From Dethiobacter sp. (GTDB lineage: Bacteria; Bacillota; Dethiobacteria; Dethiobacterales; Dethiobacteraceae), in NCBI GenBank assembly GCA_020725465.1, contig DYEY01000061.1, positions 1 through 64,000 of the forward strand: a DNA stretch of 64,000 nt. The letters are read 5' to 3'. Shown here piece by piece: positions 22,767-25,579 of this stretch; position 1 is the first letter of the stretch, and each line of letters begins with the position of its first letter. The notes beneath the pieces are model-generated. The model had not been told where the DNA came from and ran no database searches. It saw only the letters and a list, made by a program, of their open reading frames with translations. The translations under genes and the position numbers were made by a program.

Positions 22767-23063
22767 CTAAAGGGAGTAATCCTCCAGGGTGCAGTCACAG
22801 GGGCCCCCTTTGCGGTTCAGCCTGCTCATCAGAATAGCATAGGCGCATCCCACCCCGGGACGGACGCTGACGGCTCCACAGGCGCAGTTCCGGGCACAGG
22901 CACCGCACTCCATACAGGCATCACGGTCCTGCAGGGTGACGGGGCCTTTCCCCGTGCCGGCAAAAACACCCCGTGGGCAAACTTCAATGCAGGTCCCGCA
23001 ACCGTTGCACCTGGCCGCATCCAACTTCAGGGTAACCACGTTCTTCAGGTAGCGCAGTTTCAT
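22767..23063 (-). CDS. hgcB: Mercury methylation ferredoxin HgcB
   Basis: The 2[4Fe-4S] partner of HgcA, thought to reduce the corrinoid and possibly hand over Hg(II). 98 aa (known HgcB about 95). The first cluster motif is CNGCGTCIEVCPRGVF (C19-C29), the second is the HgcB hallmark CMECGACARNC (C50-C60). C73 in GVGCAYAI falls exactly at the conserved lone cysteine position described for HgcB. The C-terminal cysteine pair is CDC (C89, C91) instead of the usual adjacent CC. An extra C62 replaces the residue after the usual proline site. ATG 23063 has AAGGAG 7 nt upstream. It lies 43 nt after hgcA and ends at a strong terminator. Confidence 0.94.
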   Translation of the reverse strand: MKLRYLKNVVTLKLDAARCNGCGTCIEVCPRGVFAGTGKGPVTLQDRDACMECGACARNCACGAVSVRPGVGCAYAILMSRLNRKGGPCDCTLEDYSL

Positions 23064-23106
23064 CTTTACTCTCCTTGTTTTTTTTACTTGCCGGCTGATG
23101 TCTGAG

Positions 23107-24234
23107 TTACAGGAAAAAACCGGTGATAATGCCGCAAAGGCCCGCTCCTGAGGCAACAATAATGGCGGGCAGCGCGAAATTCATTTCTTTAAGTACCCCT
23201 GACAGGGAAGTGTAAGCTGTGGAACCGGTAAAGTTCAGGGCAAGAAAAGCGGACGCCGCCGGCAAAAACAGAAGGTACCCCACTGTCTGAACCGCGCCGG
23301 TTACGGCAGCGAACCCAAAAATATAAACAAGGGACCACAACATTCCAAGCAGCCAGCCTTTCCAGGCAAAAGCCCTGCCCGGAATAAACGGCAGCAGGGC
23401 GGGCACCAGGACTGCTCCGGCCAGGATAGCGCCGAGGAAAGGCACAAGGTTTAAAGCTGTGCCGGCCATAAGCAGCGCCAAAGAAACACCGGTTCCTTTC
23501 AGCCAGGCAGCGGTGGCGTTAAGTCCCAGCAGCGCCAGTGCCAGTACCAGTACCGGCCCGGCCAGGTGCGCCAGTTCCACCGGGACCAGCGCCAGACGCT
23601 CCCTGAAGCCAAAGCCCGCCTGTCTCATCTCCGGCGTGGCTTTGTAGCCTGACCGCAGGAAGGCCGGAACATCCGCCGCCCGCACAGGGCCAAAGACAAC
23701 CCTGAACCCGGATTGTTTCTGCACCTCGTGCGCCGCCACTCCCGGAGCGGCCAGCTGGGGCAGGATTATTGTCCGGTGGGAAACGATTTCCCGCAGGTTC
23801 ACCTGGGCAATGCGCCGTACCACTTCGGTGGTGCCGAAGGTGCCCTTACCCGCGGCACACCAGACATTGATCCCGTTTGTGTCGACTACCATCAGCCAGG
23901 CGTCCAACCCGGACAGCTCCCGGCGCAGGGAATCAAAGCTCAGCTTGTAGTTGGCCGTTACCAGCACCGGGGAGTCAGGGCCGGGAGTGCCCACCGCGTA
24001 GAGGCCCGGCGCTACGCGGTAATTCATTCTGCCCATCCCCCAGCGCGCTTTCCAGGCTCCGGTAATATCACGCCAATTTAGCCTGGTATCAGCCCTGGCT
24101 ACCGGGCCAGCCGGCGTGCCTGCCTTCTCACCCTGCCAGGAGCAGTTCCCGGATTGGCCGCTCCCTGTGTCTTCCTGTCCCGGTCCCATTCCGCAACAGG
24201 TCCATGACATGCACTTTTTTTCATCCCTTTTCAT
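23107..24234 (-). CDS. hgcA: Mercury methylation corrinoid protein HgcA
   Basis: The corrinoid membrane protein that transfers a methyl group to Hg(II), making methylmercury. The diagnostic cap-helix motif NVWCAAGK is at residues 123-130, with C126 the predicted lower-axial cobalt ligand. The cytoplasmic corrinoid domain (about 50-212) resembles the CdhD/CFeSP large-subunit fold, and five membrane segments follow (about 214-236, 249-284, 289-313, 318-346, 352-374). Length, 375 aa, is slightly over the usual 330-350 because of an N-terminal extension with four cysteines (C8, C13, C14, C31). ATG 24234 has GGAGG 8 nt upstream. It is the first gene of a two-gene operon with its own promoter and palindrome. 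Confidence 0.96.
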   Translation of the reverse strand: MKRDEKKCMSWTCCGMGPGQEDTGSGQSGNCSWQGEKAGTPAGPVARADTRLNWRDITGAWKARWGMGRMNYRVAPGLYAVGTPGPDSPVLVTANYKLSFDSLRRELSGLDAWLMVVDTNGINVWCAAGKGTFGTTEVVRRIAQVNLREIVSHRTIILPQLAAPGVAAHEVQKQSGFRVVFGPVRAADVPAFLRSGYKATPEMRQAGFGFRERLALVPVELAHLAGPVLVLALALLGLNATAAWLKGTGVSLALLMAGTALNLVPFLGAILAGAVLVPALLPFIPGRAFAWKGWLLGMLWSLVYIFGFAAVTGAVQTVGYLLFLPAASAFLALNFTGSTAYTSLSGVLKEMNFALPAIIVASGAGLCGIITGFFL

Positions 24235-24293
24235 CTTTTAAACCTCCCTGCAGCTCCGGCTGCCTGATTGATTAACGGCACAGAAGGGACATT

Positions 24294-24336
24294 TGTATTA
24301 TACATCTATTGTATAATACACGTGTTTCGCCGTCAA
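24294..24336 (-). promoter_or_regulatory. hgcAB promoter overlapped by a perfect palindromic operator
   Basis: On the minus strand TTGACG (24331-24336) and TACAAT (24308-24313) are 17 bp apart, a near-consensus sigma-A promoter starting transcription near 24301. A palindrome TGTATTATAC-N7-GTATAATACA (24294-24320) covers the -10 box and start point. Such placement predicts repression by a dimeric regulator. An ArsR-like regulator of hgcAB has been reported in another methylator; no regulator gene is adjacent here. Confidence 0.75.
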
Positions 24337-24414
24337 CCATAAAATCCCCTCAGACTGGATTTACACCGAAGGGGATTGCCGGCGCAGTAAACCGGCCGGT
24401 ACCGCAGTTTCGCA

Positions 24415-25035
24415 CTAATCAGGCAGCTGTCTTTGGTGGTCACGGTTGGAAATCCGGTCAGTGTCCTCCACATAGCCCAAGGTTTCGTCGTCTTCCCCCA
24501 CATCTTCGTAATAAACGTGAGGCAGCTTGTTGTAGAGGGCCACGTCCTGCCAGGCGTCTTCACCGTCATAGCCGGTGTAATCCTTTTCGTCCAGGAAGGA
24601 ACGGGCGAAAGGCGACATCAGGTTCAGCTCTTCTATAGGCCGGGGGTAGTCGTGGGGGACTCCCTCGGCGCGCCGTTTGCAGCTGATGCAAAACCCGGTA
24701 TAGGGGACGGCCTCCAGCCTTTCCTCCGGGATTTTTGTCCCGCAGTTCTCGCAAAGGCCGTATTTACCGGTTTTAATTTTCAAAAGGGCTTCTTCCACTT
24801 TTTCCAGGATAAGCAGGTTCTTCTCGTGCAGGGATATATCCTTGCCCCGCTCATAATTCTCGCTGGCTGTATCGGCCGGGTGGTTGTCCACCATGGACAG
24901 TTCCTGGGTGGCGTCACGGAGCGATACCTGCTTTTGCAGCCCTTCCGCGGTATCAAGCTGGGCGAGCAGCTCTTCCCTCATTTTTTCAAGCTGCCGACGG
25001 CGGGTTATGTTGACACGTTCTGCGTTGTCGGGCAA
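24415..25035 (-). CDS. YteA-family TraR/DksA-type zinc-finger protein
   Basis: About 206 aa. An N-terminal coiled-coil (LEKMREELLAQLDTAEGLQKQ), the DNHPADTASENYERGKDISL motif of the YteA family, and a four-cysteine zinc finger (CENCGTKIPEERLEAVPYTGFCISCK), followed by an acidic C-terminal region. YteA proteins are conserved in spore formers, and some are sporulation-induced; the molecular role is unknown. The TTG at 25035 follows AAGGGGG and lies just after the nitroreductase stop; the open frame to 25056 would overlap it. Confidence 0.88.
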   Translation of the reverse strand: MPDNAERVNITRRRQLEKMREELLAQLDTAEGLQKQVSLRDATQELSMVDNHPADTASENYERGKDISLHEKNLLILEKVEEALLKIKTGKYGLCENCGTKIPEERLEAVPYTGFCISCKRRAEGVPHDYPRPIEELNLMSPFARSFLDEKDYTGYDGEDAWQDVALYNKLPHVYYEDVGEDDETLGYVEDTDRISNRDHQRQLPD

Positions 25036-25036
25036 A

Positions 25037-25579
25037 TCAGCGTCCCCCTTCGGCAATTATGGTCACAATGTCTTCCACCGCCCGGCGGGCCGGAACCTGC
25101 GCTTCCCGGCCCGCCGGGTGTCCCAGCGGCACCATGGCCACCGGCACCATAGCGGGGTCGTCGATAGCCAGGGCAGCGGCCACCATTTTCTCGTTGAAGG
25201 CGCCCACCCAGCAGGCGGCCAGGCCCAGCGCGGTAGCGCCCAGCAGGATATTCTGGGTGGCGGCAGCGGTGTCCTGAAAAGCGTAGAGTGTACGCCCCCG
25301 TTCGCCGTAGGCCCGCTGTGACCGTGCCAGGTCGGCACAGACAACTATTACCACCGGAGCTCTGGCCAGCCAGAGCTGGTTCAGGGCCGCTATGGCCAGT
25401 TCCCGCTTCAGCCTTGCATCCTCCACCACATAGAAATGCCAGGGCTGGACGTTGCCGGCACTGGGCGCCATGGCCGCCGCCTCCACAAGCCGCATCACCG
25501 TGGCCCGCGGCACCGGGTCAGCGCTGAAGGAACGGATGCTGCGCCGCTCTTTTACGGCACGGAAATAATCCATGGTCAT
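25037..25579 (-). CDS. Nitroreductase-family flavoprotein
   Basis: A 180-aa FMN-dependent oxidoreductase of the nitroreductase superfamily: RRSIRSFSADPVP at the N-terminus, APSAGNVQPWHFYVV, AATQNILLGATALGLAACWVGAF, and VPLGHPAG near the end. Natural substrate unknown (nitro compounds, quinones or flavins are typical). ATG 25579 has AGGAGG 8 nt upstream. It lies directly before yteA. Confidence 0.92.
   Translation of the reverse strand: MTMDYFRAVKERRSIRSFSADPVPRATVMRLVEAAAMAPSAGNVQPWHFYVVEDARLKRELAIAALNQLWLARAPVVIVVCADLARSQRAYGERGRTLYAFQDTAAATQNILLGATALGLAACWVGAFNEKMVAAALAIDDPAMVPVAMVPLGHPAGREAQVPARRAVEDIVTIIAEGGR

Follow-up and report, generated by a model that had tools for sequence, protein, structure and literature searches.

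An ArsR-like regulator of hgcAB has been shown in Pseudodesulfovibrio; in other methylators, little is known of what switches on these genes and with them the production of methylmercury. The Dethiobacter sp. DNA analyzed here (64,000 nucleotides, referred to as the window) contains hgcAB, and a sequence-only reading had placed a palindromic operator of a dimeric regulator on its promoter. The locus raises the question of which protein would bind this element, and in answer to which signal.

The hgcAB promoter and its palindromic element

The window contains hgcA (23107–24234, minus strand), encoding a corrinoid protein with the motif NVWCAAGK, and the adjacent hgcB (22767–23066, minus strand), encoding a ferredoxin. 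Both products scored above curated equivalog cutoffs (NCBIfam NF040863 HgcA_corrinoid, 444.6 bits, cutoff 275; NF040864 HgcB_ferredoxin, 110.1 bits, cutoff 99). The RBS of hgcA, AGGGAGG, is located at 24243–24249 on the minus strand, 8 nt before the ATG. Further upstream, the minus strand reads TTGACG-GCGAAACACGTGTATTA-TACAAT, then AGATGTATAATACAAATG. This promoter, TTGACG-N17-TACAAT (24336–24308, minus strand), reads into hgcA and was one of two promoter-like sites within 2 kb, where 0.7 would be expected. Its −35 element occupies 24331–24336 and its −10 element 24308–24313, with a 17-bp spacer between them. The upstream neighbor (24415–25056, minus strand) encodes a DksA/TraR-type zinc-finger protein (PF01258), neither MarR nor ArsR. 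A terminator-like hairpin lies at 24343–24377 on the minus strand; the RNA fold of 24335–24400 gave −25.5 kcal/mol with a z of −2.0 for the whole stretch, which, given the large loop, is moderate evidence. Because this hairpin separates the hgcA promoter from the DksA/TraR-type gene, hgcAB is probably a transcription unit of its own. No marR gene was found at the hgcAB locus of the window, where hgcA is directly downstream of the element, and the place directly upstream of hgcA is taken by the DksA/TraR-type gene and not by an arsR-like one.

The palindrome TGTATTATAC-ATCTATT-GTATAATACA, with 10-nt arms and a 7-bp spacer, is present at 24294–24320 as reported, and it overlaps the −10 element of the near-consensus promoter; the start point was inferred from position. 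The palindrome extends one base inward, which gives 11-nt arms and a 5-bp spacer, TGTATTATACA-TCTAT-TGTATAATACA. Both arms are themselves palindromic (TGTAT-W-ATACA), and the element is therefore best read, from its letters, as a tandem of two 11-bp sites whose centres are 16 bp apart. Putative operator box 1, TGTATTATACA (24310–24320, minus strand), lies over the promoter spacer and reaches into the −10 box. Putative operator box 2, TGTATAATACA (24294–24304, minus strand), follows 16 bp further downstream, where transcription is expected to start. Both boxes have a perfect TGTATNATACA core, and the tandem with its 16-bp spacing spans the −10 box and the expected start. The boxes were scored with a PWM built from 17 relatives, with this genome left out. 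Box 2 (18.7) and box 1 (17.2) ranked first and second in the 64-kb window, whereas the best unrelated site scored 11.7. All 20 specified core positions were intact over the two boxes (20/20), and box 2 was better than in all relatives but one.

The symmetry of 24294–24320 on its own is only mildly unusual; the signal sits in the sequence. About ten distinct loci in the window had palindromes with arms of at least 10 nt and spacers of at most 10, versus 0–7 hits per dinucleotide shuffle. As such palindromes are not rare in the window, symmetry by itself would not carry an operator claim, and the palindrome as a rarity in itself was rejected. In the 2.91-Mb genome, TGTATWATACA occurs in three places only, two of them at the hgcA promoter. 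The third, on contig C78, is inside the rplD coding sequence and was rejected as a chance occurrence. A site at C57:18300 with a score of 20.7 was also rejected, as it is not a promoter; it lies within a terminator-like hairpin, with a PIN-domain gene on one side and a convergent gene's 3′ end on the other. Of two more sites with no convincing tandem or ars link, one, on C47 (16.7), lies on a −10 box upstream of a NifX-type gene, and the other is on C33 (15.9).

The box at hgcA loci of relatives

About 60 hgcA loci were recovered by searching for HgcA in 97 genomes from the class, 398 from the phylum and a set of named genome contigs. Among the loci tested, the gene directly before hgcA encoded a MarR-family protein of one type in 19 cases and was arsR-like in 14. 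The remaining tested loci were preceded by AbrB-like, ArsC-like or no recognized regulator. A box with at most one mismatch, at most 150 bp upstream of marR, was found at 17 of the 19 marR–hgcA loci, versus 0.26 expected from dinucleotide shuffles. By the same count, the 14 arsR–hgcA loci had none (0.16 expected), and no good box was found at the other hgcA loci without this MarR. The element is hence conserved in relatives, at the promoters of marR–hgcAB operons; had it been absent there, the palindrome claim would have failed. The regulator types suggested by the sequence-only reading (ArsR, TetR or Fur) gave way to the MarR type. At L077, a marR–hgcA locus, the box has decayed, and L054 (one Geobacter MAG) has no clear box.

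In most marR–hgcA loci, the box is located on the −10 behind a TTGAC-type −35, which is at the same place as in the window, and a second copy, usually weaker, follows 16 bp downstream. The −10 geometry is the same in L061 and L037. The closest relative (L061/L036, HgcA 63%) has the geometry of the window, with TTGACA, then TACAAT as the −10, and the box TGTATTATACA. This shared geometry suggests that the hgcA promoter of the window looks like the marR promoter of a marR–hgcAB operon after the loss of marR. Among the searched genomes, we did not find a second one with this orphan arrangement, i.e., boxes before hgcAB and marR absent.

Zhang 2023 (PMC10349881) mentions MarR genes upstream of hgcA in Dethiobacter alkaliphilus and in Geobacter daltonii, and these are probably of the same kind as the marR–hgcAB loci of the class. 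That paper differs from our results in that it describes no operator, no arsM- or arsP-type link and no orphan case. Pseudodesulfovibrio mercurii ND132 has an ArsR-like regulator of hgcAB (Gionfriddo 2023, cited in PMC10349881). It is like the system proposed here in that a winged-helix repressor tied to arsenic would act before hgcAB. The two differ in protein family and in that the regulator gene adjoins hgcAB in ND132, and TGTATNATACA is absent from the ArsR–hgcA loci tested.

Two other gene types were seen before hgcA. A low-molecular-weight phosphatase/ArsC-like gene precedes it in L041–L043, L045, L049–L051, L053, L083, L084 and L086 (Bacteroidales and some relatives in the phylum), and an AbrB/MazE-like gene in L040 and L048. 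PMC10349881 reports the latter arrangement chiefly from archaeal methylators.

The Cys-Cys MarR subfamily and a candidate regulator gene

In the hgcA-linked MarRs, a Cys-Cys-Gly motif is invariant, and most also have a C-terminal Cys-Cys. MarRs of the hgcA type (>200 bits) were present in 15 genomes of the class, and their genes adjoin hgcA in all 15. None was found anywhere in the assembly of this genome. Mis-binning of the hgcAB contig was rejected, since the IleS of the window is nearest to those of G010 and other family members (79–73%).

The best match to the hgcA-type MarR in the genome was a protein encoded on contig C75 (G000:C75:4702-5172), with 97 bits; the next match had 60. It matched the MarR domain models PF12802 (48.6 bits, cutoff 27) and PF01047 (47.9 bits, cutoff 24.6). 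Its AlphaFold model (pLDDT 86.9) has a MarR-like fold, with PDB matches including 5jls and 5yhz, and a helix at residues 71–83 where the recognition helix is expected. The motif S-T-x-(S/T)-R in this helix is common to almost all members of the subfamily. The C75 MarR shares only about 29% identity with the hgcA-linked MarRs. It does not have their Cys-Cys-Gly but a DCC near the N-terminus instead, together with Cys46 and a CC at the C-terminus, which makes its set of cysteines comparable to theirs.

The promoter of the C75 marR gene has the box variant TTGTAATATGCAA, whose PWM score of 18.1 was unreached in 300 shuffles. This box is single and has two core mismatches. The genome contains four copies of TTGYANNNTRCAA, and the C75 marR promoter has one of them. 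Orthologs of the C75 MarR were found in G010 (76%, no hgcA), G299, G362, G323 and G475, and all five have a box in their own promoters. In the last four genomes, marR is followed by a permease gene. The permease was assigned by PF03773 (ArsP_1) in G299 and by resemblance in G362 and G323; that of G475 matched SaoE/SO_0444 models below cutoff. In the genomes of the orthologs, the C75-type MarR goes with ArsP-type permeases, not with hgcA. In our genome, a gene for a SAM-dependent methyltransferase-like protein (C75, 3619–4530, L178) follows the candidate regulator gene; it has weak Pfam matches and is not ArsM.

More distant Cys-Cys-Gly MarRs are encoded before arsM-type genes (L140–L143 and L147), including an L141 protein that scored 316.6 bits with an arsenite methyltransferase model, and before a gene for an ArsA/GET3-type ATPase (L144). 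Eight ars-type Cys-Cys-Gly MarR loci have the box or a recognizable variant, often as a 16-bp tandem, and seven outgroup MarRs had one weak site at most. In the phylogenetic tree, the hgcA-linked MarRs branch at three positions within the ars-linked set; the C75 group forms a single clade (94/90). Because several of the deep forks are weak, the number of hgcAB recruitments is uncertain, and there may have been a single origin.

Across the phylum, the Cys-Cys MarR type with the same operator was seen before arsM-, ArsA- and ArsP-type genes at L135–L147. This set is apparently an undescribed arsenic-type MarR regulon.

Several known MarR proteins are comparable. MarR, OhrR, HpaR and FabT have autoregulated operators, and the present case is like them in the winged-helix dimer type, the short inverted repeat in the promoter of the regulator gene itself and the predicted MarR fold. 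They differ in operator sequence, and here there are Cys pairs, hgcAB is the proposed target and the regulator gene is off-locus. The zinc sensors AdcR and ZitR are metal-sensing members of the same fold, as the structure matches above also indicate. The similarity does not extend to sequence: the AdcR family model (cutoff 175) gave only 19.9–25.3 bits, and the cysteine pattern is different. In the literature searched, with most subscription journals outside the search, we found no report of an operator for hgcA-linked MarRs, of this MarR type before arsM or arsP, or of the orphan arrangement. This is weak evidence that the operator, the arsM/arsP link and the orphan arrangement are new to the literature.

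Proposed regulation of hgcAB and its alternatives

The element upstream of hgcA is very probably, by its sequence, an operator of the Cys-Cys MarR subfamily. Two dimers of such a MarR would bind the tandem TGTATNATACA sites on the −10 box and the start site and would block RNA polymerase at the hgcAB promoter. The dimers may then be released when their cysteines bind a thiol-seeking compound, for which arsenite, Hg(II) and organo-metal(loid)s are candidates. In relatives, the hgcAB operon begins with the presumed repressor gene, which is absent from this genome. The one remaining Cys-Cys MarR, that of C75, is the candidate trans repressor, and we think it reasonably likely that it regulates hgcAB in this organism. 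The earlier expectation of a dimeric regulator encoded away from the locus stood in so far as the site is operator-like, the regulator type is a winged-helix dimer and no marR or arsR is adjacent; it erred in counting one site where there are two. The tight repression foreseen in that reading is a prediction from the position of the sites. The arsM-, ArsA- and ArsP-type neighbors and the cysteines point to a soft metal(loid) as the inducer, with a probability that we would put only slightly above even. A broader account, which we hold tentatively and rate somewhat below even, is that hgcAB was recruited repeatedly by one Cys-Cys MarR/operator module tied to arsM-, ArsA- and ArsP-type genes. 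The module would have been rewired in this genome: with the marR of hgcAB lost, the resident ArsP-type-associated MarR would act in trans, and an arsenic-type thiol sensor would thereby govern methylmercury synthesis.

The main rival is a relic operator, in which the hgcAB-linked marR was lost, the boxes are unbound in the cell and hgcAB is constitutive from its near-consensus promoter. The lack of an hgcA-type MarR, next door or elsewhere in the assembly, agrees with this, as does the strength of the promoter by consensus. However, neutral decay would not leave every core position intact and box 2 second to that of a single relative, unless the loss was recent, and the genome has a resident MarR whose gene carries a box of this kind in its promoter. 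We consider a relic unlikely, though a serious contender. Alternatively, an hgcA-type MarR encoded elsewhere but missing from the assembly might be the regulator. The assembly is 98.2% complete in 78 contigs, which leaves some room for such a gene, but in the class it always adjoins hgcA, and here hgcA is well inside a contig with other neighbors; this option is quite improbable.

The likeness to the MarR boxes might also be convergent, with an unrelated regulator, e.g., of the ArsR, TetR or GntR type, reading them. Several regulator families use palindromes that look broadly like these. Yet the arsR–hgcA loci have no such box, and the sequence, the tandem spacing and the position over the −10 all agree with the marR loci, which makes convergence very improbable. 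A chance palindrome around an AT-rich −10 box is very unlikely and can be put close to nil. The frequency of 10-nt arms in the window and the letters that a TATAAT-like −10 shares with the motif would allow it, but sequence, position and 16-bp tandem spacing are independently conserved in relatives.

The operator, the regulator subfamily and the candidate gene named here would permit direct experiments on methylators of the phylum. As the operator is shared with arsM- and ArsP-type loci, arsenic or some other soft, thiol-seeking ligand is predicted as a possible inducer of the methylation genes; such induction would parallel the ArsR case independently and would hint at what HgcAB natively does. 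Since this cysteine-rich MarR repressor family is elsewhere encoded before arsenic-methylation genes, a link between arsenic sensing and methylmercury production becomes testable.

HgcA itself varies at its N-terminus. Bacteroidales HgcA is without a Cys-rich N-terminal extension. At loci with a MarR or ArsR neighbor (23107–24234 in the window; L007–L100), HgcA mostly has such an extension with a CC pair, and that of the window is MKRDEKKCMSWTCCGMG. This Cys-rich N-terminus resembles the Cys-rich N-terminus of ArsM proteins in related marR–arsM loci.
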